Positions 3,824 to 57,304 of a DNA stretch of 64,000 nt are shown piece by piece. The notes under the pieces were generated by a model, which was not told the origin of the DNA, searched no databases, and worked only from the letters and a program-made list of their open reading frames with translations. The stretch is from Chloroflexota bacterium. Lineage in GTDB: Bacteria > Chloroflexota > Dehalococcoidia > Tepidiformales > Tepidiformaceae. The position numbers and the translations under genes are program-made. Every line of letters begins with the position of its first letter. The first letter of the stretch is position 1. The DNA is taken from contig JAPPBY010000017.1 in assembly GCA_026702615.1 (NCBI GenBank), forward strand, positions 186,001 to 250,000, written 5' to 3'.

Positions 3824-3870
3824 GGGCGGGACCTGGAGCCTTGGGAGATGGCGACAGGTCCCGTCCTTTT
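3824..3870 (+). terminator. Probable intrinsic terminator downstream of ftsZ
   Basis: GGGCGGGACCT (3824-3834) pairs with AGGTCCCGTCC (3856-3866), 11 bp with one G-U, followed by TTTT. Confidence 0.65.
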
Positions 3871-3948
3871 CTGTGAGCTATGCGCCGGCCACCCCGCCGG
3901 CGGCACCTCTCCTTTCAGCCAGATCGTCACGGTATCACGGGGGGTCAA

Positions 3949-4701
3949 CTACTTACCACCGGATTCCGCATCAGCGGGCCACTCGACGGTGCGGCCGCTC
4001 TCCATCGACTCGCCGAGCAGGCGCGCCTCGATCCAGGGCGCCAACAGATCGTCGAGGGCCTCCGCCACGGTCCCGAGGGAGTGGCCGGCGTCGCCATAGA
4101 TGACGAGGCGCTTGGGATCGAGGGCGCGGCGGTAGATGTCCTCGCTGGCCTCGGAGTCGAGCACCTCGTCGGCGCTGCCGTGAACGAGCAGGAGGGGACG
4201 ATCGAGCTCCTCGACCTGGCGGGTGCCGTAGAGCTGTGGCGAGAGCGAGGCGACCCCGCGCACGAGCGGGTGGAGGGCGCCGGCCTTGACGACGACAGCG
4301 CCGCCGAAGCTGTGCCCCACGAGGACGGCATCGGAGGCGCCGATGCCCTTGAGGAAGGAGCAGCCGGCGAGGATGTCGAGGACGCACTCCTCGAAGGCGT
4401 TGGGCTGGCGGTAGTCGAGGCGGAGGACGCTCACGTTGCGGGGCATGAGCAGGCCCGGGAGGCGGGCGAAGAGGCCTTCGGCGGGGCCATCGAGGCCGCC
4501 CATGGCGCCACCTGCGCAGATGGCGGCCCCGGAACCTCCCTGCACCGGGTGGAAGATCCCCGGAATCTCCCCACGGCTGGTCTGGAGGACGACAGACAGG
4601 CTCTCCGGCGTGGGGCCAGGGGCGGCCGTCACGTTGCGGAGGCTCAGCGTCAGGTCATCGGGTTCGGGGCCCTGGGGCTCGGTCACGCGCGCACGATACA
4701 A
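3949..4701 (-). CDS. Alpha/beta hydrolase (dienelactone-hydrolase-like)
   Basis: Nucleophile elbow VGHSFGG, HGSADEVLDSEA, GDAGHSL. Confidence 0.75.
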   Translation of the reverse strand: MYRARVTEPQGPEPDDLTLSLRNVTAAPGPTPESLSVVLQTSRGEIPGIFHPVQGGSGAAICAGGAMGGLDGPAEGLFARLPGLLMPRNVSVLRLDYRQPNAFEECVLDILAGCSFLKGIGASDAVLVGHSFGGAVVVKAGALHPLVRGVASLSPQLYGTRQVEELDRPLLLVHGSADEVLDSEASEDIYRRALDPKRLVIYGDAGHSLGTVAEALDDLLAPWIEARLLGESMESGRTVEWPADAESGGK

Positions 4702-4719
4702 CCCGGCGCGAGCAGGGGG

Positions 4720-5139
4720 TCAGGTGAGCCTGGCGTCCTCGGGGAGGGGGTCGCGGGGCACATCTTCGTGGGCGTTGACCATGTGGTGGGCGAGCGTCTC
4801 GAGCCGCCCCCACATGGCGTCGAATTCGCCCTGGGGGACCTGCTGCGACTCGAGGGCGGCGCGCATGTGCGTCAGCCAGAGCTGGGCGTGGTGCTCGGCG
4901 ATGACGAAGGGGAAGTGGCGGCGGCGGAGGCGGGGGTGGCCGTAGCGTTCCGAATAGCGCGCTTCGCCGCCGAGCCACTGCTCGAAGAAGAGCGCCAGCT
5001 TCTCGCGGCTGGGGGTGAGGTCGTCGGGGTAGAGGGCGCGGAGGGGAGCGTCCTTCGCGACGGCGTCGTAGAACGCCTCGACGATGGCCTCGACCACCTC
5101 GCGCCCACCGATGCGTTCGAAGGGGGTCTGGGCGCTCAC
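4720..5139 (-). CDS. Truncated hemoglobin-like globin
   Basis: FERIGGREVVEAIVEAFYDAVAKDAPLRALYPDDL...LALFFEQWLGG...RHFPFVIAEHHAQLWLTHM; GTG start overlaps the permease stop (GTGA). Confidence 0.85.
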   Translation of the reverse strand: MSAQTPFERIGGREVVEAIVEAFYDAVAKDAPLRALYPDDLTPSREKLALFFEQWLGGEARYSERYGHPRLRRRHFPFVIAEHHAQLWLTHMRAALESQQVPQGEFDAMWGRLETLAHHMVNAHEDVPRDPLPEDARLT

Positions 5140-5900
5140 GAAGTCCGCCAGCGGAGCGCGAGGAACGTGAGGGTGAAGGAGGCCACGCTGAACCCGAGCG
5201 TGGCGGTGGCGCCCCAGAGAATGTCGAAGCCGTTCCAGCCTTCGATGATGAGGGAGCGCTGCGCCTCGAGCACATAGGTGATGGGATTGATGGTGGCGAG
5301 CACCTCGAGCCAGTCGGCGAAGACATCCTTGGGGGCGAACGCCGTGGAGAGGAAGATGAGGGGGAAGAGGAGGAGCCCGCCCGCAGCGGCCGCCTGGGGG
5401 CTGCCGGTGCGGAGGGCGATCGCGGCGTTGAAGCCGGAGTAGGCCATCCCGAATCCGAACGACCCCACGAGCAGGACCAGCAGGCCCGGGACGCCCGTAT
5501 CGAAACCCGTGCCGAAGATGAGGCCCACGCCAACGATGAAGGCCGTAATGGCGACCGTACGAACGCCATCGGCGGCGATGCGCCCGAAAACGATCGCGGA
5601 GCGGGGCGCGGGGGTGAGGAGGAGCTTGTCGAAGTAGCCGCGCTGGATGTCGGTGATGGTGCCGAGACCGGCGCTCGCGGAGATGCTGGAGGCAGCGGCG
5701 AGGATGGCGACCGGCACCTGGAAGCCCGTGAAGTTGTCGATGCCGAAGGCATCGGCCGCGATCGAACCGATGGAGCCGACGGTGACGGCAAAGAAGAAGA
5801 GGGGGATGAGGACGTTGCCGGCCTCCTGCGCGGGATTCCGGACGGCTTCTCGGAGGGAGCGCAGCGTGAGGAAGTACACGGTGGCAATGGATTGCATCAC
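5136..5900 (-). CDS. ABC-2 type transporter permease (DrrB-like)
   Basis: Six hydrophobic segments, TLRSLREAVRNPAQEAGNVLIPLFFF; overlaps downstream of DrrA-like ATPase. Confidence 0.85.
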   Translation of the reverse strand: MMQSIATVYFLTLRSLREAVRNPAQEAGNVLIPLFFFAVTVGSIGSIAADAFGIDNFTGFQVPVAILAAASSISASAGLGTITDIQRGYFDKLLLTPAPRSAIVFGRIAADGVRTVAITAFIVGVGLIFGTGFDTGVPGLLVLLVGSFGFGMAYSGFNAAIALRTGSPQAAAAGGLLLFPLIFLSTAFAPKDVFADWLEVLATINPITYVLEAQRSLIIEGWNGFDILWGATATLGFSVASFTLTFLALRWRTS

Positions 5901-6871
5901 GCGGCTCCCCCCTCGGCGGGCTGCGGCTCCTCCACCTGGAGGTGGTGTCCGGTCGCCTCGAGAAAGACATCGTCGAGGCTGGGGCGGGAGATGGCGACGT
6001 CGCCGACCTCGATGCCGGCGTCGTCGAGGGCCAGGACGATGCCGGCGACCGCGCGGGCGCCGTCCGGCACGTAGACGACAGCGGCGCCGTCGGCGATCTG
6101 CACACGCTCGACGCCAGCGACGTCGCCTACGACCTCGGCGGCGCGGTCGAGAGCATCCGCGGCGGGCACCTGGACGGTGACAACGTCGGTGCCGATGCGG
6201 GCCTTCATCTCGGCGGGCGAACCGCGGGAGATGATGCGGCCCTCATCGATAATGGCGAGGTCGTGGGCGAGGCGGTCGGCCTCCTCCAGATACTGGGTGG
6301 TGAGGAAGACGGTGATTCCGTCCTCGGCGCTGAGGCGGGTGACGTAGCGCCAGATCGCCTCCCGACTGATCGGGTCGAGGCCTGTCGTCGGCTCATCGAG
6401 GAAGAGGATGTCGGGGCGGTGGACAAGGGCGGCGGCGAGGTCGAGGCGCCGCTTCATCCCGCCGGAGTAGGTGCCAATGGCGCGATCGGCCGCGTCCTCA
6501 AGGTCGACGATGGCGAGAAGCTCGTCCACGCGCCCGCGGCGGCGGGCTCCGCCCATGCCGAAGAGGCGCGCCTGGAGCGTGAGGAGCTCGCGACCGGTCT
6601 GGACGTCGTCGAGACCGGCTTCCTGGAGGGCGACGCCGATGCTACGGCGCACGGCGCGGGCGTCGTCCCGGATGTCGAGGCCGTCGACGCGGGCGCTGCC
6701 CGCGGTCGGACGGAGCAGGGTCGTGAGCATGCGGATGGTCGTCGTCTTGCCGGAACCGTTCTGGCCGAGGAAGCCGAAGATGGTCCCGGGCGCGATGTCG
6801 AGGTCGATCCCGTCGACGGCACGCACTTCATCGAAGTGCTTGGTCAGACCCTGGGCCCAGATCGCGCTCAC
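5897..6871 (-). CDS. ABC transporter ATP-binding protein (DrrA-like)
   Basis: Walker A GQNGSGKTT, signature YSGGMKRRL, Walker B ILFLDEPTTGLDP; GTG start (VSAIWAQGLTKHFDEV) chosen over longer ORF. Confidence 0.9.
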   Translation of the reverse strand: MSAIWAQGLTKHFDEVRAVDGIDLDIAPGTIFGFLGQNGSGKTTTIRMLTTLLRPTAGSARVDGLDIRDDARAVRRSIGVALQEAGLDDVQTGRELLTLQARLFGMGGARRRGRVDELLAIVDLEDAADRAIGTYSGGMKRRLDLAAALVHRPDILFLDEPTTGLDPISREAIWRYVTRLSAEDGITVFLTTQYLEEADRLAHDLAIIDEGRIISRGSPAEMKARIGTDVVTVQVPAADALDRAAEVVGDVAGVERVQIADGAAVVYVPDGARAVAGIVLALDDAGIEVGDVAISRPSLDDVFLEATGHHLQVEEPQPAEGGAA

Positions 6872-6917
6872 CGGATCGAGCGTAGGGCATTGGGTGCGTT
6901 CGGCAAACTTTCGAGTG

Positions 6918-7616
6918 TTATGTCGTATCGCCGGTAGCCGGTTCGGGGTGGGCCTCGCCGTTCGCGATGACCTGGGCGAGCAGGTCGAGGTTGTCGCTAT
7001 TGACGCCCGCCGCGCCGGCCCCGAGGACACGCTCCAGTTCGGCCGTCGTGTTCACCGGCCACACGAAGGTCGACACGCCACGGCCGGAGAGCTCGCTCAT
7101 CAGCGCCGGTTCGACGAGCGTGATGTGCATGGAGAGGGCGTGGAAGCGATCCCCGAGGGTAGGCATGAGCTCGGCGAGCTCGTGGGGCCAGGCGGCGGAG
7201 GGGATGAGGCAGACCCCGTCCCGCCCCTCGAACGGCTCCAGCAGCCACCACTCGCGGGTCGTGACCGCGTAGGTGCTGGAGATTCGGCGGTCGAAGGCAG
7301 CAACGATGCCCTCGGAGAGGGCGAGGGTCTCGGACTTCAGGTCGACCATGAGCTGGACATCGGGGCCAGCGGCTTCAATGACAGCCTCTAGCTCGAGGCG
7401 AGGGCCCCAGCCCGGGGAGAGCCGCCAGCGCTCGCGGAGGAGGGGCAGGGGCCCGACGGTCTTGGCGTGACGCACCTCGAGGCGGCCGCGGCGGAGCCAG
7501 ACATCGAGCTCCACGAGGTCGGCGCCGATAGACGTGGCGTGCTCGAGACGGGCGAGGTCGTTGCCGGCGCGGTGGGCGATGGCGACGGGGCGGCCCCGGG
7601 GCCGGGGGCAGGTCAC
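6918..7616 (-). CDS. Glycerophosphodiester phosphodiesterase family protein
   Basis: VAIAHRAGND, GADLVELDVWL, VDLKSE; C-terminal STFVWPVNT. Confidence 0.8.
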   Translation of the reverse strand: MTCPRPRGRPVAIAHRAGNDLARLEHATSIGADLVELDVWLRRGRLEVRHAKTVGPLPLLRERWRLSPGWGPRLELEAVIEAAGPDVQLMVDLKSETLALSEGIVAAFDRRISSTYAVTTREWWLLEPFEGRDGVCLIPSAAWPHELAELMPTLGDRFHALSMHITLVEPALMSELSGRGVSTFVWPVNTTAELERVLGAGAAGVNSDNLDLLAQVIANGEAHPEPATGDTT

Positions 7617-8017
7617 GAAGCGGGCCCGCCTCGCTGGAGCAGGTACTGCACGTCGGGAGGGAGGGGAATGCCACGGCCAGTCACGGTATCGAGCCAGGCC
7701 CAGGAGTGGACGAAGGTGGCGACGGGCGTCCCGCGAGCGGTGGAGCGCACGGAGAACTCCTGCTCGAAGCCGCGGTCGTCGGTGCTGGTGGTCGTGACCT
7801 CGACAGTGGCGCCGTCGCGCCAGGGGAGGGGGGAGTGGTAGACGGCACGGGTTTCGCGCTGGACGGCGACGACGTGGTCGGGCTTGGAGACGCCGCAGTG
7901 CTCCTCGAAGGCGGCGTAGGCGAGCTCCGTGAGCGCGAGCAGCACACCCGCGTGGACGAAGCCGGTGTCGGTGAACGTGTCAGTATGGCGGGTGGGATAG
8001 GAGATGGAGAAGGGCAC
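7613..8017 (-). CDS. Acyl-CoA thioesterase (hotdog fold)
   Basis: RHTDTFTDTGFVHAGVLLALTELAYAAFEEHCG; ATGA overlap with 6918-7616. Confidence 0.7.
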   Translation of the reverse strand: MPFSISYPTRHTDTFTDTGFVHAGVLLALTELAYAAFEEHCGVSKPDHVVAVQRETRAVYHSPLPWRDGATVEVTTTSTDDRGFEQEFSVRSTARGTPVATFVHSWAWLDTVTGRGIPLPPDVQYLLQRGGPAS

Positions 8018-8054
8018 GGCCCGATCGTGGGAGTCGCGGGCCCGAGAGGCAAGC

Positions 8055-8525
8055 CTAGAAGATGACGACGTCGACACCCCAGACCTGGCCGGCGCCGGTC
8101 ACGAAGAGGACGACGGCGATCAGGATCATCATCAAGTTCTGGCCCTGCTCGCCCTGATCCTTCAGGCCGGCAAGGAGGAGGTAGTTCAGGTTGAGGAAGG
8201 CGGCCAGCACGAGACCGGCGAAGGTGAGGATGCCGAAGGTGATGCTGACGCCGGCGGCGAATTCGCCGAGGACGACCAGCCAGGAGGTGATGACCCAGGT
8301 GCGCTGGCTGCGCAGGGCGGTTGCCTTGAGGATGCCAGCGAAGGCGGGAATGGGGTGATTCTCGACGAGGCCCTCGACCCAGCCGCGCGATCCGCCGCTG
8401 AGGAAGCCGGGCAGGTCCTTGTGGCGCACGCTCTCCAGCCACCAGAGCCCGAGCCCGATGCGGAGGATGGCAAGCCACTCCTCCTTTGTGAGCCAGTCGA
8501 AGATGTCCAGCGGTTCCATCGGCAC
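8055..8525 (-). CDS. DoxX-like membrane protein
   Basis: WLAILRIGLGLWWLESVRHKDLPGF and four hydrophobic helices typical of DoxX/TQO small subunit. Confidence 0.6.
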   Translation of the reverse strand: MPMEPLDIFDWLTKEEWLAILRIGLGLWWLESVRHKDLPGFLSGGSRGWVEGLVENHPIPAFAGILKATALRSQRTWVITSWLVVLGEFAAGVSITFGILTFAGLVLAAFLNLNYLLLAGLKDQGEQGQNLMMILIAVVLFVTGAGQVWGVDVVIF

Positions 8526-8569
8526 GGGATTCTAGCGCTCCTGCGGCGGCCTCGCGCTAGGATCGGACG

Positions 8570-9112
8570 ATGGCAAGCGACACTCGTCCCCCGCTGGTGT
8601 GGGTCGACATGGAGATGACAGGGCTCGACGTGGCGCGTCACCACGTGCTCGAAGTGGCGGCGATCGTGACGGACGGGGACCTGAACGAGGTCGACGAGGG
8701 GCTCGACCTGATCGTGCATCAGCCCGACGAAGTTCTGGCGCTGATGGACGAGTGGTGCGTCAACCAGCACGGCCAGTCGGGACTGACCGCAGCGGTGCGG
8801 GCGTCGCGGGTCGAGCTCGCGGAGGCGGAGGCGCTACTGCTCGAGTACCTGCGACGGCACACGTCGGAAGGGCAGTCGCCGCTGTGCGGGAACTCCGTGG
8901 GGCACGACAAGCGCTTCCTCGAGCGCTGGATGCCGGAGGTGGTCCAGCACCTGCACTACCGAATCATCGACGTGTCGACGGTGAAGGAGCTCGCGCTGCG
9001 CTGGTATCCCGACATGAAACGCTTCCCCAAGGGGGAGGCGCACCGCGCGCGCGACGACATCCGCGAGTCGATCGCGGAGCTGCGGTACTACCGGGAGCAG
9101 CTTTTTCGTTAG
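8570..9112 (+). CDS. orn: Oligoribonuclease (DEDDh 3'-5' exoribonuclease)
   Basis: WVDMEMTGLD, GNSVGHDKRFLERWMP, IIDVSTVKELALRWYP, HRARDDIRESIAELRYYRE. Confidence 0.96.
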   Translation: MASDTRPPLVWVDMEMTGLDVARHHVLEVAAIVTDGDLNEVDEGLDLIVHQPDEVLALMDEWCVNQHGQSGLTAAVRASRVELAEAEALLLEYLRRHTSEGQSPLCGNSVGHDKRFLERWMPEVVQHLHYRIIDVSTVKELALRWYPDMKRFPKGEAHRARDDIRESIAELRYYREQLFR

Positions 9113-10032
9113 CGGCCTCGCAGGCGGCGGGCGGCGCGCTGGATGATGCCCGGCCGGCGGATGCGTTCGCGCAGCTGGGTCAGGCCTTCGGGCGTGCCGA
9201 TGAGGAGCGGTCGCGACCAATCGCGCAGGGTGGGGGTGCGGTCGTCGCGGACGCGGGTGGGCGGGACGAAGCGTTCAAACGGCTTCCAGCTGTTGCCCTC
9301 GCGGATCAGGGCCTCGCGACCCGCCGCTTCCGCGAGGACCAGGCCGGCGGCGACGTCCCAGACGTGCACGCCCCAGAACTGGGCGGTGGTGAAGACGCCA
9401 GTGGCGACGTAGGCGCACTCGATGGCGGCAGACCCGGTAACGCGGTTGTCCCAGCTTGCGGCACGCCCGGGGGCGCCGCCGGGAGCAGCGCTGAGGCTGC
9501 GGCGGACGCCCTGGTTCTCGACGGCCTCCACGGGCTCGCCCTCGAAACTGAGAGGCCCACCGTGGCGCGCGTGGTAGACGCCCGGCCCGAGGCCGTGGCT
9601 GGTGGAGCACCAGATCGCGCCCGCGACGGGAACGCCCTCGTGGAGGACCCCGACGGAAGCCGCGAAGAGCGGGTAGCGATTGACAAAATTGCTGGTGCCG
9701 TCGACCGGGTCGATGGCCCACAGGTATTCGGCGTCGGGGAGGGGATGGTCGTCCTGTTCCTCGCCGAGGACGGCGTGGCCGGGGAGGCGTTCAGCCAAAC
9801 GCTCGCGAATCATCCCCTCGACGGCACGGTCGACCTCAGAGACAGGGTCGGTGGGGGCAGCTTCCTCGGACTTGCCCTTGTCCTTGTAGTCGACGTTGAT
9901 GGAGCGTCCGAGGGCAGCGGTGATCTCGGCGCCGGCAGCCTCGGCAAGCTCGCGGGCAGTCGCTTCAAGCTCCGCGAGCAACGCGGCCCTTGACCGTGGA
10001 AGCTCGTGCTGGGGAATGGCCTCGTCGGTCAC
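9109..10032 (-). CDS. Inositol monophosphatase family protein
   Basis: DPVSEVDRAVEGMI, LGEEQ, WAIDPVDGTSNFVN, GVHVWDVAAGLVLAEAAG; converges on orn with 4-bp overlap. Confidence 0.85.
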   Translation of the reverse strand: MTDEAIPQHELPRSRAALLAELEATARELAEAAGAEITAALGRSINVDYKDKGKSEEAAPTDPVSEVDRAVEGMIRERLAERLPGHAVLGEEQDDHPLPDAEYLWAIDPVDGTSNFVNRYPLFAASVGVLHEGVPVAGAIWCSTSHGLGPGVYHARHGGPLSFEGEPVEAVENQGVRRSLSAAPGGAPGRAASWDNRVTGSAAIECAYVATGVFTTAQFWGVHVWDVAAGLVLAEAAGREALIREGNSWKPFERFVPPTRVRDDRTPTLRDWSRPLLIGTPEGLTQLRERIRRPGIIQRAARRLRGR

Positions 10033-10039
10033 GTACGGG

Positions 10040-12673
10040 TCACGATCCGGCTTCCGCGGCCAGCTCCTCGAGGGTCACGCGGGCGACACGGCGGCCCCTG
10101 GCAAGCAGCGCTTCCAAGTCACCCTGGGCCTGCGCGGCCTTGAGCTGGGCGAAGGTCCAGGGCTTGCCGGGCACGGGGGCGTCGACGGGGTCGTCACGGA
10201 CAATCTGGACGAAGGCGCCGCTGGGCGGCCCGCCCTTGTGGAGCTGGCCGGTGGAGTGGAGATAGCGCGGCCCGAAGGCGGCAGTCGTGGCGACGCCATG
10301 GCGGTCGCGAAGGCGGAGGCGGAGATCCTGCAAGGCGGCAGCGTTCTCGGCGGTGCGGGGAAGGTAGGCCAGCAGGGCGAGGTAGTCACCCGGCCGGAGG
10401 GAGGCGAGCACCTCGGCGACGGGCGGTGTCTGCGGGGGCGGGGCGGGGGCGGCGAGGACGCGGGCGGTGGCGTCCTTGGCCTCCTGCACGTTGGGCTGGT
10501 CGAAGGGGTGGACGCCGAGCACGTGCCCGGCGACGGCGGTGGCGATCTCCCAGCGCGCGAACTCGGCGGGGAGCTGGGTGGGGTCGGCGTAGGGGAGGCG
10601 CACGACCGGGTGGCCGGCCGCCTCGATAGCATCGAGCCCGTCGTGCTCGCCGAGGGCGACGAAGATGCGGTCGTCGCCATAGACATCGGGCGACGCGAGG
10701 GGCTCGCCCTCGATCGGCACGATGCCCTTCCCCTCCTTGCCAAGAGACTCGGCGAGGATCTGCTCGATCCAGATGCCGAGCTCGCCAAGCTGCTCGGGCA
10801 GGACGAGGGTGAGCTTGTCACGACCGGCGAGGGCGGCCTCGCCCAGCACGGCCCCAAGGAGGACGCCGGGGTTCTCGGCGGGGACGGTGCGGCGGCACGC
10901 GTCGAACATTTCCTGGGCGCGCATCGCGAGCTGGCCCACGTCGGCTCCGAAGAGGGCAGCGGGGGCCATGCCGAACGCCGACAGGGCCGAGTAGCGCCCA
11001 CCAATCTCAGGGTCGCCGTGGAAGACGTGGCGGAAGCCGCGCTCTCGGGCGAGGGTGTCGAGCGGAGAGCCCGCGTCGGTGATGGCAGCGAAGCAGGAAC
11101 CGTCGGGGACCTTCTCCCAGAACCAGGCGAGCTGGGCGCTCGTCTCGATGGTGGTGCCACTCTTGCTGGCAGCGATGAAGAGCGTGCGATCGAAGTCCAG
11201 ACGGGATTCGAGGGCGAGCAGCTCCTCCGGATCGGTCGTGTCGGGAACGTGCAGGGTGAGCCCGCCGTTGGCAGTCCCGAGGGCGGTGTGCAGGACGCTC
11301 GCGGTGAGGCTCGACCCGCCCATGCCCATGAGCACGACATCGGTCAGGCCTTCGCCGGCAATTTCAGCAGCGAAGGCGGTCAGCTCGGGCGCATCTTCCA
11401 GGCTCTGCTCGGCGGCGGTGAGGAAGCCGAGGCGGTCGGCGATCTCGGCGGGGTCGGGCTTCCAAACGGTGTGGTCGCGCATCCAGATGCGGCGAACGAC
11501 CTCATCGCGGCGGAGCGCCGCGAGGCGCTCCTCCACGGCGGGCGTGAGGTCGCCGAGCGCACGCGACGCGGCCGGCTGGCGGCCGGGCGCCGTCGCGAGA
11601 CGGCGGTCGAGCTTTGCCATGAGCGCCTTGTAGCTGTCTTCGAAGGAGGCGAGCCCGTCGACGAGGAGCTTGTCGGTTACGGCGGTCAGATCGATGCCGG
11701 CCGCCTCGGCCTCGGCGAGCAGGCGGCCCGCTTCGTCGAGCCTTTCGGGGACGGCGGGTTCGACGACCAGGTGGTCGAGCACGGCGTCAAGGGTGGCCTG
11801 GGGAAGGGTGTTCACGGTGTGCGGGAAGATGAGGGTCTCGACGTAGAGGGTGTCGGAGTAGGCGGGGTTCTTGGTGCCGGTCGAGGCCCAGAGGGGGCGC
11901 TGGGGGCGGGCTCCGGCGTTCGCGAGGCGCTCCCAGCGCTCGCCCGCGAAGATGGCCTGGAAGCGGGCGTAGGCGTGGCGGGCATTCGCGACGGCGATCT
12001 GGCCGCGCAGCGGCGAGTCGCCGGGAAGCTGCGCATCGACGGCGGTATCGACGCGCGAGACGAAGAAGGAAGCGACGCTGGCGATGGTGTCGAGGGAGTC
12101 GCCGGCCTCAAGGCGCTGTTCGAGGCCGGCGATGTAGGCCTCCGCCACGCGCTCGTAGACGGCGACGCTGAAGAGGAGGGTGACGTTCACGTTCACGCCC
12201 GCCGCGATGAGCTCCGTCAGCGCTTCGACGCCGGCGGGCGTGCCGGGCACCTTGATCATGACGTTGGGCCGGTCGACGAGACGGAAGAGGCGCAGGGCCT
12301 CGGCGACGGTGGCCTCGCGGTCGTGCTCGATGCCGGGTGGCACCTCGAGGGAGACGTAGCCGTCGACGGCGGCGGTGGACTCGTAGACGGGGCGGAGGCC
12401 GTCGGCAGCGAGCTGAATGTCCTCGGAGGCGAGAGCGACAAAGGCGTCGTAGGGGTCGGCTTCGCCCATGCGAATGATGGCCTGCAGGGCCTCCTCGTAG
12501 TCTCCCGACTCGGAGATGGCCTTATCGAAGATGGTGGGGTTGGAGGTCATGCCGGTGATCCAGCCGTCGGCGACCATGCGGTCGACCTCGCCGGAGCTGA
12601 GCAGGCCGCGGCGGATGTAGTCGAGCCAGACGCTCTGGCCGTGCTGGATGAGCTGCCGGGTTGCCAGCGGCAC
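10040..12673 (-). CDS. Bifunctional transaldolase / glucose-6-phosphate isomerase fusion
   Basis: N-terminal transaldolase (GMTSNPTIFDKAI, RPNVMIKVPGTPAGVEAL); C-terminal SIS/PGI (GMGGSSLTASVL, FIAASKSGTTIET). Confidence 0.93.
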   Translation of the reverse strand: MPLATRQLIQHGQSVWLDYIRRGLLSSGEVDRMVADGWITGMTSNPTIFDKAISESGDYEEALQAIIRMGEADPYDAFVALASEDIQLAADGLRPVYESTAAVDGYVSLEVPPGIEHDREATVAEALRLFRLVDRPNVMIKVPGTPAGVEALTELIAAGVNVNVTLLFSVAVYERVAEAYIAGLEQRLEAGDSLDTIASVASFFVSRVDTAVDAQLPGDSPLRGQIAVANARHAYARFQAIFAGERWERLANAGARPQRPLWASTGTKNPAYSDTLYVETLIFPHTVNTLPQATLDAVLDHLVVEPAVPERLDEAGRLLAEAEAAGIDLTAVTDKLLVDGLASFEDSYKALMAKLDRRLATAPGRQPAASRALGDLTPAVEERLAALRRDEVVRRIWMRDHTVWKPDPAEIADRLGFLTAAEQSLEDAPELTAFAAEIAGEGLTDVVLMGMGGSSLTASVLHTALGTANGGLTLHVPDTTDPEELLALESRLDFDRTLFIAASKSGTTIETSAQLAWFWEKVPDGSCFAAITDAGSPLDTLARERGFRHVFHGDPEIGGRYSALSAFGMAPAALFGADVGQLAMRAQEMFDACRRTVPAENPGVLLGAVLGEAALAGRDKLTLVLPEQLGELGIWIEQILAESLGKEGKGIVPIEGEPLASPDVYGDDRIFVALGEHDGLDAIEAAGHPVVRLPYADPTQLPAEFARWEIATAVAGHVLGVHPFDQPNVQEAKDATARVLAAPAPPPQTPPVAEVLASLRPGDYLALLAYLPRTAENAAALQDLRLRLRDRHGVATTAAFGPRYLHSTGQLHKGGPPSGAFVQIVRDDPVDAPVPGKPWTFAQLKAAQAQGDLEALLARGRRVARVTLEELAAEAGS

Positions 12674-45361: not shown

Positions 45362-46153
45362 ATGACCTCGTCGGCAGCCGACGAACTCAGCGAGGCGCTG
45401 ACCCGCCTCCAGGGCGAGCGCGAGACCATCCTCGGCGAGATCGCGACGATTGAGCGCGACCTCGGGGAGAAGCACGAATCGCTCTCCGACGTGAACGAGA
45501 AAATCGAAGCATTGCGGAAGACGCTCGCCGTCTTGCGCCCGGACCTGGTGCGCAATCTGGAGCGGCCAGCAGCCCCCGAGGACGAGGACGAGCCGGACGA
45601 GCAAGCGCCGGCTGAGGCGGCGACAGCGGCGGACTTCTCAGAACTGCCCCGCCAAACGGCCGTGCTTGGCATCCTCGCGGGGGCCACCGAGGCCATGCAC
45701 TATCAGGAGATCGCGGAGATCGCGGGCGCGCCGGCGAGCAGCGTTTCTCCCAACCTCTCGCACCTGAAGTACCGGGATCTGGTGGAATCGACTGACCCGG
45801 GTACGTACCGGCTGGCTCCCGTGCTCCCGCTCGAGAGCGAGCAGGAGGCCAACGAGGCGCTGCGCGCCGTGGCGACCGCGATCGTGGACGACCGGCAGTG
45901 GGACATTCTCGAGGCAGTGTTCGAGATGGACGAGCGACTACCGTTCGTCGGGTTCGAGCACTTCCGGCGAAACCGGCTCGCCAATGTCACGGGCGTTCGC
46001 TGGGCGAACGACCGGCTGACACACGCCCTGATGAAGGAGTTGCTGAGCCGGGAGCTGATCGAGGTCTATCACACGGACAACCCGCGCAATCCAGAGTTCC
46101 CGACAGCGGCGATTCGCCTGACGGCCGAGGGGCTGGACGAGATCGAGGACTAG
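45362..46153 (+). CDS. Coiled-coil plus winged-helix putative regulator
   Basis: Heptad-like N-terminus; AVLGILAGATEAMHYQEIAEIAGAPASSVSPNLSHLKYRDLVES wHTH-like. Confidence 0.6.
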   Translation: MTSSAADELSEALTRLQGERETILGEIATIERDLGEKHESLSDVNEKIEALRKTLAVLRPDLVRNLERPAAPEDEDEPDEQAPAEAATAADFSELPRQTAVLGILAGATEAMHYQEIAEIAGAPASSVSPNLSHLKYRDLVESTDPGTYRLAPVLPLESEQEANEALRAVATAIVDDRQWDILEAVFEMDERLPFVGFEHFRRNRLANVTGVRWANDRLTHALMKELLSRELIEVYHTDNPRNPEFPTAAIRLTAEGLDEIED

Positions 46154-49847: not shown

Positions 49848-51947
49848 CTAGCCGGACTCGCGGAGCTCGCGGTTGAGGTAGGCGCGGGCGAGGGTGAGCT
49901 GGTCGTAGGAGAGGTCGCCGCCGAGGGCCTCGCGGAGGGGGCGAAGGGCGGCGAGGGGCCGTCCGGCGGCGATGCGGCGGATGCGGGCGAGGTCGGCGTC
50001 GGTGACCCAGGGGCGCACGTCCCCGATCTGTCCCTGCTCGACAAAGCGGGCGAGGTGTTGCGCGATGGTCTGGGCCTTGAACCCCCGGCGGGCCGCGATC
50101 TCGTCGATGGTCAGCCCCTCGTGGTGGAGCTCGAGGGTGCGCTGGGCGGTGGGGGGAAGGTTGGCGCCGGCGCGAGGCTTGACGAGCGAGGGGGTGGGCT
50201 CGGGAGCGGGCGGGGCTTCGGGAGGGGGAGGTGGTTCGGCACCGTTGGAGGTAATCACGGCGAGGAAGGCGGGACCGTAGCGCTCGGCCTTCACGCGGCC
50301 GACGCCGCGAACCTGAAGCAGGCCCGCCTCGGACGTCGGACGCTGCTCGACCATGTCGTGCAGGGTGGCGTCGCTGAAGATGACGTAGGGCGGGACGCCC
50401 TCCTCCTCGGCGAGGCGGCGGCGCAGGGCGCGTAGCTCGAGGAAGAGCGGGGCTTCCGTGTCGGCCTCGCGCTGGCGGGTGGGGGCGAGGCAGGGGCCGC
50501 AGTTGCCACAGGCGCGGGCACCGTCCGCCTCGCCGAAGTAGTCGAGGACGCGGGCGCGCAGGCAGGTGGCCGACTCGGCGTAGGACTGCATGGCGTCGAG
50601 CTTGGCGGTGGCGTGGGCGCGGTGCTCCTCGAGCCCGGCGAGGTCGATCTCGGCCTCGCCGTCGGGACGGAGCGCCCAGGCGAAACGGCCCTGGCGCTGC
50701 GCAAGCCCGGACTCGACGAGCGCCTGCACGGCCGCGTTCACGCCGGGCGTCTCCTCGCTGTCGACGAGGTCGTCGATGATCTCGCGGTCGCCGGCGCGCC
50801 GGACGAGGGCGTGGTAGACCTCGAGCACGGTGTCGGGCGAGGGGTGGCCGAGTTCGATGAAGAACTCACGCAGGCCGCGGTCGCGTGGGGCGTAGTAGAG
50901 AACGCACTCGGCGGGATCGCCGTCGCGTCCGGCGCGGCCTGCCTCCTGGTAATAGGCCTCGATGGACTCGGGCAGGTCGTGGTGGACGACGAGGCGGACA
51001 TCGGGCTTGTCGATACCGAGTCCGAAGGCGTTCGTCGCGATGATGATGCGGACGCTGTCGCGGGCGAACGCGTTCTGGATGCGGACACGGTCCTCCTCGG
51101 GGAGGCCGGCGTGGTAGCGGGCGCAGCGGATGCGTCGCGCCTGGAGCGCCGCCGAGAGGGATTCGACGCGCTTGCGGGTGGCGCAGTAGACGATCGCGGA
51201 GGCCTCGCCGCCGAGGGCCTCGAGGAGCTCGGCGATGTGTTCCAGCTTGTCCTTCTGGCTGCGGACGCGGATGGCGTGGAAGCGGAGGTTGGGGCGGTCG
51301 AAGCCGGCGATACGCACGTCGGGGTCGGCGAGGCCGAGGCGTTCGACGATGTCGTCGCGGACGCGGGGATCGGCGGTGGCGGTGAGGGCGACGATGGGCG
51401 GGTTGCCCAGGCGCGCGCGGGCGGCGCCGAGGTCGCGGTAGCTGGGGCGGAAGTCATGGCCCCACTGGGAGATGCAGTGAGCCTCATCGATGGCGAGGAG
51501 GGACACGTCGACGCCGCGAAGGGCGGCGACGAAGCGGCCGTCGGAGAAGCGCTCGGGGGCAACGTAGAGGAGGCGGAGGTCGCCATCGGCGGCGCGGCGC
51601 AGGATGTCGCCCTGCTCCTCGCGGGGCACGGTCGAGTTGATGGCGGCAGCGGCGACGCCGTTCCGCGTGAGGGCATCGACCTGGTCCTTCATCAGGGCGA
51701 GGAGGGGCGAGACGACGAGCGTGAGGCCATTGAGGAGGAGCGCGGGGAGCTGGTAGCAGACGCTCTTGCCGCCGCCGGTGGGGAGAACGGCGAGGGTGTC
51801 ACGACCGGAGAGGACCGAGGCCACGACCTCGGCCTGCCCGGGCAGGAACTCGCCGTAGCCGAAGACCTCGCGCAGCTGCTCGCGGGCGGGCGTGAGGGCG
51901 CGGGGATCGTGGGTGGGGACGGGAGAGGCTGCGGGGGAGGCGGTCAC
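49848..51947 (-). CDS. recQ: ATP-dependent DNA helicase RecQ
   Basis: VLPTGGGKSVCYQLPALL, IDEAHCISQWGHDFRPSYRDL, EAGRAGRDGDPAECVLYY, zinc-binding CLRARVLDYFGE...CGNCGPC, HRDC-like C-terminus. Confidence 0.94.
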   Translation of the reverse strand: MTASPAASPVPTHDPRALTPAREQLREVFGYGEFLPGQAEVVASVLSGRDTLAVLPTGGGKSVCYQLPALLLNGLTLVVSPLLALMKDQVDALTRNGVAAAAINSTVPREEQGDILRRAADGDLRLLYVAPERFSDGRFVAALRGVDVSLLAIDEAHCISQWGHDFRPSYRDLGAARARLGNPPIVALTATADPRVRDDIVERLGLADPDVRIAGFDRPNLRFHAIRVRSQKDKLEHIAELLEALGGEASAIVYCATRKRVESLSAALQARRIRCARYHAGLPEEDRVRIQNAFARDSVRIIIATNAFGLGIDKPDVRLVVHHDLPESIEAYYQEAGRAGRDGDPAECVLYYAPRDRGLREFFIELGHPSPDTVLEVYHALVRRAGDREIIDDLVDSEETPGVNAAVQALVESGLAQRQGRFAWALRPDGEAEIDLAGLEEHRAHATAKLDAMQSYAESATCLRARVLDYFGEADGARACGNCGPCLAPTRQREADTEAPLFLELRALRRRLAEEEGVPPYVIFSDATLHDMVEQRPTSEAGLLQVRGVGRVKAERYGPAFLAVITSNGAEPPPPPEAPPAPEPTPSLVKPRAGANLPPTAQRTLELHHEGLTIDEIAARRGFKAQTIAQHLARFVEQGQIGDVRPWVTDADLARIRRIAAGRPLAALRPLREALGGDLSYDQLTLARAYLNRELRESG

Positions 51948-51986
51948 GCTGCGCAGTCTAGAACATTTGAGCGTCAGGCGGGCAAG

Positions 51987-54167
51987 CTACCAGTTTCGGA
52001 CCGTTCGAAGCTCCCCTTCCGGAACAAGAGCTCGGTGAATGCGGGGCAGCCACTTCTTCGTCAGCGCAAGCTGCCGGCCGAAGAGCGTGACGGCGTCCCT
52101 CACCTCAGTCTCTTGTCTCTGCAGTTGATGCCGAGCTGCAGCATCAACCATCACTTCAGCAAGCATGACATTGAATGGGACGGAGTTCTGCCCAGGGCGG
52201 CCCTTGTTCTTCGGACCAACATAGCGACGTACGGTCGGGTCATTTGTGTTCACGTAGATGCGACCCTCTTCCATGTTGAGCCACGCCCGCTGATCAACGT
52301 CAGCGTCCGTGAATTCGATCTTTATGCCAGAAACACCTGTGCTGGTAACGATCAGCTCGGTCTCCGCGACATCCTCACCCAAAGTCGCAGTTAGCCGCGC
52401 CCGCGCGCCTACCCGCTGACCTCGCACCCGAATCCGGCAAATGCCAGCATCACGAGCCTCATCGTGGGTGAAGACCCCCGACAGGCCTTGTGGCAGCGAA
52501 ATGCTTGAGTCGCCCTCTATCTTGAACTGGGCCTGGTCCCCGACTTCTGTGACCATGGCCCACGGTGCCACCAGCACGACTCTCCGCTCTTGGCCATCCT
52601 TGACGGAGAAACGCGCGCTCTCGAACTCAAGCTGCTCAACGAGCGCCGGGGGACGATGACGCCACTGGACAAGCGCACTTGCCTCCGCGACTCCCACCCG
52701 CACCACAACCTCGCTCATTGCCCCCTCTTCGCGACCCGCCACTGTGTAGGTGCGGCTGAAGTAGCCGGTCCTTGGTTCGAGCACAAGGGACACTGGCTCA
52801 TGCCGCCCATCCTCATCAGCCTCAACGACTTCAACTGCCACGGGTCCCGCTTGTTCGTCAGCGCTATTGGGACGATAGCGAACGAGCAGGCGGGCTGCCT
52901 CACCAGGCTCGACAGGACGCACCGAGGGGATGACAGACAATCCGGGCGGAGGGAGCTTCCCGTCGCTCCCATCCCCTCCTGTATCTTCATCCATCAGTTT
53001 GGCAAGCTCTCGGCCCGCACGGTCCCACCTACGCCTAGTCTCTTCGGAAACCTCGCCCTCAGCCTCCTCGGCAGCCTTTCTAAGCCGCTCAAGGTGTGGG
53101 GTCAGCGCCTCCTCGAGGACCGTGTAGAGCGCGTCAACAAATGGATGGTCCCGCCTACCAGCCAGGCCGCGACGATCCCGGCGCACCAACCTGAGAGGAT
53201 TCTGTGCATCAGGCGTTGCCCCACTCTCCTCGGCATCGTCGAACGCACGTATCAGCTCGTTGATCCCTGGGACGGAGGCATAGCCGTAGATTCGCCTGAG
53301 GTGGGAGGCATCCGGCTCGCGAGAGAACTTGCCGCCGTCGAATATCTCGTAGGCTGCCCTGCCGGATCGGATGAGGATCGAGTGCCGCCAATACTCGCGG
53401 TCCTCACCCTCCTCAGAGAGGGGTTCGCTCGCTTCGTAGAGCTGTAGGTCTACTTGTTGGCCATCGAATCCGGGAATGGACCGCGTGACCTCTTCAAGAA
53501 GAACAGCCTTGGGTGGTTCGAACCGAATCTTGTCGCTCCGGTCCTGTGACTCATCCTTGAGGGTCACCTCACGACCATCGCTGTCCAGTAGCAATGGGCG
53601 CAGGGCATAGTGGTTCCTCAGCCTCTGAAGCAATGTCTCATGCCGAGGGACCCGAAAACGCGGCTGGACATGAAGCGTTGCTGTCGTCCCTCGACGGCCT
53701 TGGGGCGCGCTCCCCAAGACTCCAACCTCAGCCTTCCCAGTAAACCGCCCGTCGAACAGCAACTCGAAAAAGCTGAGAACTCCAGCTTTCACCGACTCCC
53801 AACGGGCTGGGCCGAAGTGAACGATGTCCTTCGCTCCGCGACCAAAGAGGCCCCGCCGCTCAGCCCCTGTTTCGAATCCGCTTGTTCTCTCGCCCATCCT
53901 TCCCAATCGCTGCTCGAGTTCATTGGCCGACATTCCCCCAGCCCTATCCTTGACGACCACCCTCGTGGGAGCACGCCGGTGGCGCTCAACTTCGATGCGA
54001 ATCTTCTCGCGACGGCTGCTGTTCATAGCGAGGTAGGCATCATCACAGTTGGTGACGAGCTCAACTATCGCGTTGATGGGATCCGACCCCATCGCCAATT
54101 CGGCATCCTGCCGCTGCGCGCGAGCCGTGACCTCTACCTCTACGACACGACGTTCAGATCTAGCCAT
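51987..54167 (-). CDS. GHKL (Hsp90-like) ATPase domain protein, uncharacterised, 726 aa
   Basis: N-box AIVELVTNCDDAYLAM, G1 VVKDRAGGMS, G2 GLFGRGAKDIV; beta-rich middle part; starts inside the 3' end of the upstream gene. Confidence 0.75.
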   Translation of the reverse strand: MARSERRVVEVEVTARAQRQDAELAMGSDPINAIVELVTNCDDAYLAMNSSRREKIRIEVERHRRAPTRVVVKDRAGGMSANELEQRLGRMGERTSGFETGAERRGLFGRGAKDIVHFGPARWESVKAGVLSFFELLFDGRFTGKAEVGVLGSAPQGRRGTTATLHVQPRFRVPRHETLLQRLRNHYALRPLLLDSDGREVTLKDESQDRSDKIRFEPPKAVLLEEVTRSIPGFDGQQVDLQLYEASEPLSEEGEDREYWRHSILIRSGRAAYEIFDGGKFSREPDASHLRRIYGYASVPGINELIRAFDDAEESGATPDAQNPLRLVRRDRRGLAGRRDHPFVDALYTVLEEALTPHLERLRKAAEEAEGEVSEETRRRWDRAGRELAKLMDEDTGGDGSDGKLPPPGLSVIPSVRPVEPGEAARLLVRYRPNSADEQAGPVAVEVVEADEDGRHEPVSLVLEPRTGYFSRTYTVAGREEGAMSEVVVRVGVAEASALVQWRHRPPALVEQLEFESARFSVKDGQERRVVLVAPWAMVTEVGDQAQFKIEGDSSISLPQGLSGVFTHDEARDAGICRIRVRGQRVGARARLTATLGEDVAETELIVTSTGVSGIKIEFTDADVDQRAWLNMEEGRIYVNTNDPTVRRYVGPKNKGRPGQNSVPFNVMLAEVMVDAAARHQLQRQETEVRDAVTLFGRQLALTKKWLPRIHRALVPEGELRTVRNW

Positions 54168-54733
54168 TCCAAGAATCCCCCTACTTCCTCTATCTGGGCA
54201 ACATGAGCCGCTCCAACAAGCTCTTTCACGCGACGCTGCACCGCTTGCCTTGGGGCATCGGCTGGAAAGCGCAACGCATCAGCGACTTCATAGAGCGCAA
54301 TGTCACGCTCACCACGGTTCCACTGTTCGAATAGCCGATGCTCCGCCAACTGGCGCAGCGCCCGAGCCTCTGGTTCGGCCAGCGCCGAGAGTCCGCGGCG
54401 AGGGCGCCCCGCTCCAAGTCTCTCAGCGTTGTCTTCGCACCAAGCGAGGCCAGCCTCCGTCAGGAGCCAGCCAGTTGCTTCGTCACCTGTGACGAAGACG
54501 CCGTACTTCTCCTTCTTGGCGTCCCGCAACGCAGCCCTAGCCAGTTCCAGATGGGGGTACTGGCGGTGTTTCTCCCAACCGAAACGACGCGGCGCGATTT
54601 CGTAGCACTTCAGCGCGACGTCCTCGCCGTCTTGACGCGATGTCCCACCCCCCAGCGAATAGAGGGCCAGGACGGCAATTCGCCAGTTCGAAAGGCGATC
54701 AAGTGGGTCAGACTCGGTCTTTTGTCTGGCCAT
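54140..54733 (-). CDS. Winged-helix-like protein, partner of GHKL ATPase
   Basis: DRLSNWRIAVLALYSLGGGTSRQDGEDVALKCYEIAPRRFGWEK...GWLLTEAGLAWCEDN; 28-bp overlap with GHKL gene. Confidence 0.65.
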   Translation of the reverse strand: MARQKTESDPLDRLSNWRIAVLALYSLGGGTSRQDGEDVALKCYEIAPRRFGWEKHRQYPHLELARAALRDAKKEKYGVFVTGDEATGWLLTEAGLAWCEDNAERLGAGRPRRGLSALAEPEARALRQLAEHRLFEQWNRGERDIALYEVADALRFPADAPRQAVQRRVKELVGAAHVAQIEEVGGFLEWLDLNVVS

Positions 54734-54806
54734 GCCGCTAGCTTACTCGTCACCCCCCTAGCTGCAGATCGGGAAAGTGCCTGCGTCCGACGGGTAGGCT
54801 AGGGCC

Positions 54807-57304
<2,498 letters not shown>

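Follow-up and report, generated by a model that had tools for sequence, protein, structure and literature searches.

A mobile gene pair of a winged-helix protein and a GHKL ATPase beside recQ in a Tepidiformaceae genome: a possible DNA-surveillance module

Beside recQ in a Chloroflexota bacterium (Tepidiformaceae, GCA_026702615.1) lie two overlapping genes of low GC content, which raises the question of how this pair reached its present position and what its products might do. Throughout, the window is the 64,000-nt stretch of this genome that was analysed, to which all unlabelled positions refer. A preliminary description of the window had singled out two same-strand genes with a 28-bp overlap, and the open reading frame coordinates agree:

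54140..54733, minus strand, small gene, 197 aa (open reading frame list; winged helix plus helical bundle)
51987..54167, minus strand, GHKL ATPase gene, 726 aa (open reading frame; PF13589, E 1.6e-6; 27-member alignment)
54140..54167, minus strand, gene overlap of 28 bp (open reading frame coordinates; also 28 bp in sister genome G031)

A GC scan of the window bore out the suspected low GC content, with 60.9% for the pair against 69.3% for the flanks, and elsewhere in the window every stretch as long as the pair has at least 65.5%. Searches for a sigma-70-like promoter in 51850-54900 and for RNA families in the window returned none.

Comparison with eight sister genomes allowed the boundaries of the acquired DNA to be placed as follows:

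51987..54769, unstranded, inserted segment (empty-site alignment, absent in five sisters)
51979..51986, unstranded, left 8-bp near-repeat CGGGCAAG at one edge of the insert
54770..54777, unstranded, right 8-bp near-repeat CGGGAAAG at the other edge
49848..51947, minus strand, recQ (helicase, RecQ zinc-binding and HRDC domains; Pfam, open reading frame coordinates)
54807..55601, plus strand, divergent CobB/CobQ-like glutamine amidotransferase gene (Pfam GATase_3, E 1.7e-36)

Throughout the genus, recQ lies next to the glutamine amidotransferase gene in divergent orientation, and in five of the eight sisters (G028, G029, G030, G033 and G034) the site between them is empty, being no more than a short gap. 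One sister, G031, carries the pair at the same site with an identical left junction; the gap is occupied in G032 by a different 259-aa gene of unknown family (L063, 2374-3153) and in G035 by a Schlafen/AlbA_2 gene (L064, 2902-4038). Since empty and occupied sites coexist among the sisters and the left junction is shared, the segment, which runs from the ATPase stop codon to about 54769, was inserted as one unit at a site receptive to other cargo. The five empty sister sites and a GC content 8 points below that of the flanks thereby uphold the horizontal acquisition suspected from the window sequence. In L062, L063 and L064, which hold the site in sister genomes, no tRNA was found. recQ begins 40 bp past the ATPase stop codon on the same strand and, judging by gene layout, may now be co-transcribed with the pair. 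Just outside the insert and upstream of recQ, the element AGAACATTTGAGCG (about 51957-51975), which is kept in most sisters, is a possible regulatory site.

The distribution of the ATPase is patchy, as it was detected in two of the 38 genomes of the family and in 14 of 399 genomes spread across the phylum Chloroflexota, and further searches per class and order within the phylum raised the number of homologues. Of 29 Chloroflexota loci in which the ATPase is complete or nearly so (including L115 and L131, in which the frame is broken), the small gene lies directly upstream in 23; the six loci lacking it all carry the short form and belong to family f158. The two genes are thus kept together in distant relatives, and the co-occurrence on which the proposal of a two-gene system depended is real. 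Furthermore, the similarity between small proteins tracks that between their ATPases (Mantel r 0.83; r 0.79 on 13 diverse members, a value reached in no permutation out of 5000). The dN/dS values of 0.06-0.07 between the window genome and G031 show that purifying selection acts on the two genes. Synonymous divergence between these two genomes is 1.5-2.0 for the pair and 0.34-0.48 for the flanks; the higher value could reflect separate acquisition or gene replacement, or may instead be due to the differing GC3 of the pair.

The ATPase tree consists of two clades (both 100/99), namely a long form, to which the window ATPase belongs, and a short form that includes genus g59 and family f158. Long-form members are scattered and mostly of low GC content, their pairs lying 3-20 points under the flanks in nearly all relatives, whereas the short form has host GC and a fixed neighbourhood in both g59 and f158, and in g59 is passed on vertically at one position. 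Not all members therefore act as mobile defence genes. Vertical inheritance in all relatives, which the preliminary description had named as evidence against its reading, is accordingly true of the g59 short-form sub-clade and untrue of the window's own long-form pair, which was inserted at a site that five sisters retain empty. Genome G871 holds both forms: its short copy has the GC content of the host, whereas its long copy lies 20 points under the flanks. A contig search with the window ATPase alone matched solely the sister genome G031. The window ATPase had no relative in plasmid and phage collections, two ATPase homologues had no match in the plasmid collection, and neither the single ATPase nor the alignment had a match in IMG/VR; the only plasmid match to an alternative GHKL type (Rhizobium) had no small-protein gene beside it.

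The small protein was modelled by AlphaFold2 with a pLDDT of 86, from which two regions were delimited:

54416..54706, minus strand, winged-helix region, residues 10-106 (AlphaFold2 model)
54146..54376, minus strand, C-terminal helical bundle, residues 120-196 (AlphaFold2 model)

The winged helix comprises helices at residues 16-26, 36-46, 62-73 and 93-106 and wing strands at 81-84 and 88-91. Of the wHTH-like segments proposed earlier, one winged helix is thereby confirmed, but the C-terminal half is a helical bundle and holds no second. Foldseek returned weak winged-helix matches only (e.g. VanR and DtxR), and Pfam none at all. A STAS domain was sought and had no Pfam match, the model being helical with one winged hairpin and lacking the alternating strand-helix layout; likewise, a Toprim fold is absent from the model and an invariant tyrosine is absent among the homologues. 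NCBIfam RseD (E 0.011, far under the cut-off) and TniQ, the best PDB match of the small-protein profile (E 0.003), were both rejected as too weak.

The ATPase, in contrast to the small protein, has recognisable sequence motifs, and the following features were assigned:

54039..54062, minus strand, N box E36..N40..D43 (invariant in 27/27 homologues)
53934..53948, minus strand, G1 box D74-x-A76-x-G78 (invariant in 27/27)
53829..53855, minus strand, G2 box R105 G106 .. G109 R110 G111. K113 (invariant in 27/27, except G109 in 26/27)
52980..53507, minus strand, S5-type transducer and stalk helices, about residues 221-396 (AlphaFold2, Foldseek, invariance)
52344..52955, minus strand, two Ig-like beta-sandwich domains, about residues 405-502 and 515-608 (AlphaFold2, Foldseek)
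51987..52286, minus strand, C-terminal strand-helix tail, about residues 628-726 (alignment, AlphaFold2)

Membership of the GHKL superfamily is indicated both by a Pfam match above cut-off (HATPase_c_3, residues 32-113, E 1.6e-6) and by the N, G1 and G2 boxes recognised at the outset, which are invariant in the 27 homologues except for the one change at G109. R332, G334 and H341 in the transducer and stalk region are also invariant among the 27, as are A670 and E671 in the tail. The AlphaFold2 model is of middling confidence (pLDDT 78, pTM 0.51), the domain limits are approximate, and the S5 transducer is assigned by fold match only. The best solved Foldseek match is the Methanosarcina topoisomerase VI-B (665 columns, E 2e-10, 9-14% identity), followed by GyrB and MutL, and the middle of the protein matches Ig domains. 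The second Ig-like domain is missing from short-form relatives.

These folds sharpen several claims of the preliminary description. Its beta-rich middle resolves into two Ig-like domains, and the affinity to MORC, topoisomerases and MutL holds at fold level. Its statement that no nuclease domain could be recognised is sustained by Pfam and fold; it also recognised no topoisomerase domain, yet the layout does resemble that of topoisomerase VI-B, a likeness not visible in the sequence. Nuclease, Toprim and TIR domains were sought by Pfam and fold with no match, and the insert, in which no effector had been seen, carries neither a nuclease nor a toxin. A PDB sequence search with the single ATPase gave no match, and the family profile matched Hsp90-type ATPases only, weakly. 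When the ATPase model (m92dfef5353e3) was compared with BFVD, the best viral folds were uncharacterised giant-virus proteins matching over the whole length (Hokovirus, 702 aa, E 1e-22, and Yasminevirus), followed by phage topoisomerases and rIIA proteins.

Topoisomerase VI-B shares with the ATPase the GHKL domain, transducer, stalk and Ig-like C-terminal domain; the pair is nevertheless not a topoisomerase VI, as the ATPase is accompanied not by Top6A/Spo11 but by a protein made of a winged helix and a helical bundle, which has neither a Toprim fold in the model nor an invariant tyrosine. MORC and SMCHD1 are likewise GHKL ATPase clamps, by which DNA is compacted or silenced, and SMCHD1 has Ig-like repeats after its ATPase. 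The window ATPase differs in that no hinge or CW domain was seen, and the MORC motif GhXhhpXXRhl is missing in all 27 members. The paraMORC families have been described as GHKL plus S5 proteins of restriction-modification operons, and bacterial MORC relatives were proposed as restriction-system parts in 2008 (Iyer, Abhiman and Aravind, PMC2292703). paraMORC 1-5 resemble the pair in having a GHKL domain with all motifs, an S5 domain, a C-terminal extension, a patchy, mobile distribution and no MORC signature, and they are often found with restriction-modification genes. Conversely, the pair has a conserved winged-helix partner ('winged' and 'wHTH' occur nowhere in the text of PMC2292703) and an Ig-like extension, and its locus is without a restriction-type helicase or nuclease. 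In the broad sense of GHKL plus S5 without the MORC motif, the ATPase is paraMORC-like, with S5 recognised by fold only. The restriction-modification context is absent at its own locus; HARE-HTH or Mrr_N proteins occur at several long-form loci, and methylases only by the distant loci L151 and L153. Assignment to paraMORC2 or paraMORC5 was rejected, as ExxxH (S5 region) and HxH (C-terminal domain) are not conserved across the 27.

Shedu type I-D, represented by VcSduA (paraMORC3), combines a GHKL ATPase and a mobile island with proven anti-phage activity (PMC12137116). VcSduA, however, ends in a DUF4263 nuclease, while the window ATPase has no nuclease domain and neither Pfam nor PADLOC found the DUF4263 PD-(D/E)xK nuclease, which excludes Shedu. 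CapK (HTH-STAS-GHKL) and CapS (STAS-wHTH) form a pair upstream of immune operons (PMC13373217) and are, like the present genes, a two-gene GHKL and winged-helix combination; they were set aside since no STAS was seen in either window protein, nothing points to a kinase mechanism and no immune operon lies downstream. With regard to MzaABCDE, relatives of the small gene adjoin sigma70_r4 plus GHKL or GHKL-like genes, with weak PADLOC matches to MzaA (L151, L152 and L155) and one very weak match to MzaB (L151), whereas the window pair has no Mza match and no Z1 or AIPR genes were identified. PADLOC-DB 2.0.0 matched neither window protein, and on the 27 ATPases gave one marginal, unrelated match. 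In the open-access literature, no paper with both HARE-HTH and GHKL was found, and a search for GHKL and winged-helix defence pairs led only to the analogues CapK/CapS and VcSduA. Thus, the pair is paraMORC-like in a broad sense and lies outside MORC, topoisomerase VI, Shedu and CapK/CapS, and it may provisionally be regarded as a new family, its novelty being provisional because the literature search was limited to open access. Its nearest tested analogues are CapK/CapS (PMC13373217) and VcSduA (PMC12137116), from which it differs in domains.

The neighbours of related pairs offer further context. At five of nine long-form loci (L053, L054, L055, L118 and L122) a HARE-HTH protein is encoded upstream of the small gene, mostly with a coiled coil preceding the HARE-HTH domain (two of the five matches are above the Pfam cut-off and three just under it), and at L114 an Mrr_N protein takes this position (E 1e-14). 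HARE-HTH and Mrr_N are typical of restriction systems (Pfam descriptions), and winged-helix and HARE-HTH domains have been discussed as readers of modified DNA (PMC11037411). The vicinity of L053 also contains AbiEi/AbiEii and HEPN-like genes and tyrosine recombinases. The small-protein profile identified six more loci without a window-type ATPase, and at nearly all of these another GHKL-type protein follows directly, so that the small protein seems to partner GHKL clamps generally. At L151 (G223, 3849-10178) a REase_II PADLOC match, an Eco57I-type methyltransferase, sigma70_r4, the small protein and a GHKL protein form one run; L153 combines a small-protein homologue, a GHKL protein and an N6/N4 methyltransferase, and L155 is a three-gene run of small winged-helix protein, GHKL protein and sigma70_r4-type protein. 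At L152 and L154 (genus g76), the small protein is followed by a protein of 626 or 597 aa, GHKL-like to the eye, and this in turn by a sigma70_r4 protein, which at L152 also carries HARE-HTH; Pfam found no match in the GHKL-like protein of L152. At L150, a HARE-HTH gene and the small gene are accompanied by a GHKL fragment and an integrase. The genes around the window pair, the f16 pairs and some others are of ordinary chromosomal kinds and do not form defence islands. In several lineages, pairs adjoin replication or repair genes (window 51947-51987; L113, L116 and L122), a pattern seen post hoc: recQ in the window genome and G031, mfd in G542, dnaG in G871, and polX near the pair in g59, the polX near the G653 pair having been recognised by reading of the sequence.

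As to function, we propose, with about an even chance of being right, that the pair is a mobile two-gene DNA-surveillance module composed of an ATP-gated dimeric clamp and a winged-helix reader or loader, perhaps directed against phages or plasmids. The large protein would be the clamp, built from GHKL and S5 domains as in topoisomerase VI-B, MutL and MORC and carrying Ig-like extensions. The small winged-helix protein, probably produced from the same transcript, would act in the same complex as the ATPase, finding or gripping DNA and loading the clamp, and the HARE-HTH or Mrr_N protein of many mobile relatives would serve as a second reader. ATP-driven closure would then trap, loop or compact foreign DNA, or pass it to a nuclease encoded elsewhere. 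Of this scheme, the genes, their domains by fold, the insertion, the conserved pairing and the purifying selection are established, while dimerisation, binding to DNA, formation of a complex, action on DNA and a defence purpose are inferred. Gyrase, topoisomerase VI, MutL and MORC are GHKL-S5 dimers that close on or around DNA with ATP; for this reason such closure is the likeliest action of the ATPase. A defence purpose is favoured because the long form moves, occupies accessory sites and travels with restriction reader domains. The vertically inherited short form, together with neighbours that act in repair (recQ, mfd, dnaG and polX), would also fit a less likely role in repair or the chromosome.

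Such a role would make the pair an ATP-driven accessory clamp for chromosome maintenance or DNA repair that assists replication or repair, acquired in some lineages for its usefulness and core in others. The short form, vertical at one place in g59 and likewise in f158 at host GC, is consistent with this, as are the pairs beside recQ, mfd and dnaG or near polX and the start of recQ 40 bp downstream on the same strand after insertion; it is nevertheless unlikely, as the ATPase is absent from 36 of the 38 family genomes, nearly all long-form loci have foreign GC, the company kept includes HARE-HTH, Mrr_N, methyltransferases and integrases, and the repair-neighbour pattern was noticed post hoc. 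A paraMORC-like accessory of restriction and modification, in which the clamp would connect a site that has been recognised with a nuclease encoded elsewhere and would be inert alone, is similarly doubtful. Although paraMORC families belong to restriction-modification operons (PMC2292703), type II restriction or methylation genes adjoin the relatives of the small protein at L151 and L153, and G031 has a HARE-HARE-Mrr_cat nuclease elsewhere in its genome, no restriction-type helicase, methylase or nuclease adjoins the pair in the window genome, G031 or G542, and the G031 nuclease is a single observation, the window genome having no HARE-Mrr_cat protein.

It is very unlikely that the pair is regulatory in the manner of CapK/CapS, with a GHKL kinase or switch acting on a winged-helix repressor that controls a promoter. 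A GHKL and winged-helix pair is known upstream of immune operons (PMC13373217), and a winged helix most often belongs to a transcription regulator; however, no STAS was seen, the ATPase is built with an S5 transducer, a stalk and Ig domains, and the next gene is recQ rather than an immune operon. That the genes are an ordinary relic, acquired but without present function, would fit the broken GHKL frames of relatives G516, G909 and G136, yet this is hardly credible given the dN/dS of the window pair and its intact motifs. The surveillance module proposed above might, more speculatively, represent a bacterial counterpart of MORC/SMCHD1-like silencing, i.e. nuclease-free mobile immunity in which the winged-helix reader loads a topoisomerase VI-B-like ATP clamp that entraps and compacts invading DNA, as one of several interchangeable modules of a GHKL clamp and a winged-helix or HARE reader in Chloroflexota, of which the window genome would have two; we hold this only tentatively.

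GHKL clamps with a transducer are known from topoisomerases, mismatch repair and MORC silencing, and to our knowledge few of the bacterial MORC relatives have been tested. In the family described here the gene pair is compact and conserved, the partner of the ATPase is clear and no nuclease is visible. It would let one ask directly whether a GHKL clamp alone acts on foreign DNA, a question with implications for how eukaryotic MORC and SMCHD1 arose.

Elsewhere in the window, at 45362-46153 and 6 kb from the pair, a 263-aa protein with a coiled coil and an IclR-type HTH is encoded, which is also present in G031. The HARE-HARE-Mrr_cat restriction nuclease of this pair-bearing sister lies at L157, 1168-2232. 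On the window's contig, outside the window, a second module was observed (G000:C13, about 134200-136350; L160:5708-7845), in which a coiled-coil-HARE-HTH gene directly precedes a 513-aa GHKL gene (HATPase_c_3, E 1.7e-8). Its GC content is 0.60-0.62 against 0.65-0.73 around it, and no HARE-HTH match was found in the sisters G030, G032 and G033, which are without the window pair. At L053, L122 and L150, the third gene encodes a homologue of the HARE-HTH protein of this second module (E about 1e-11 to 1e-13).
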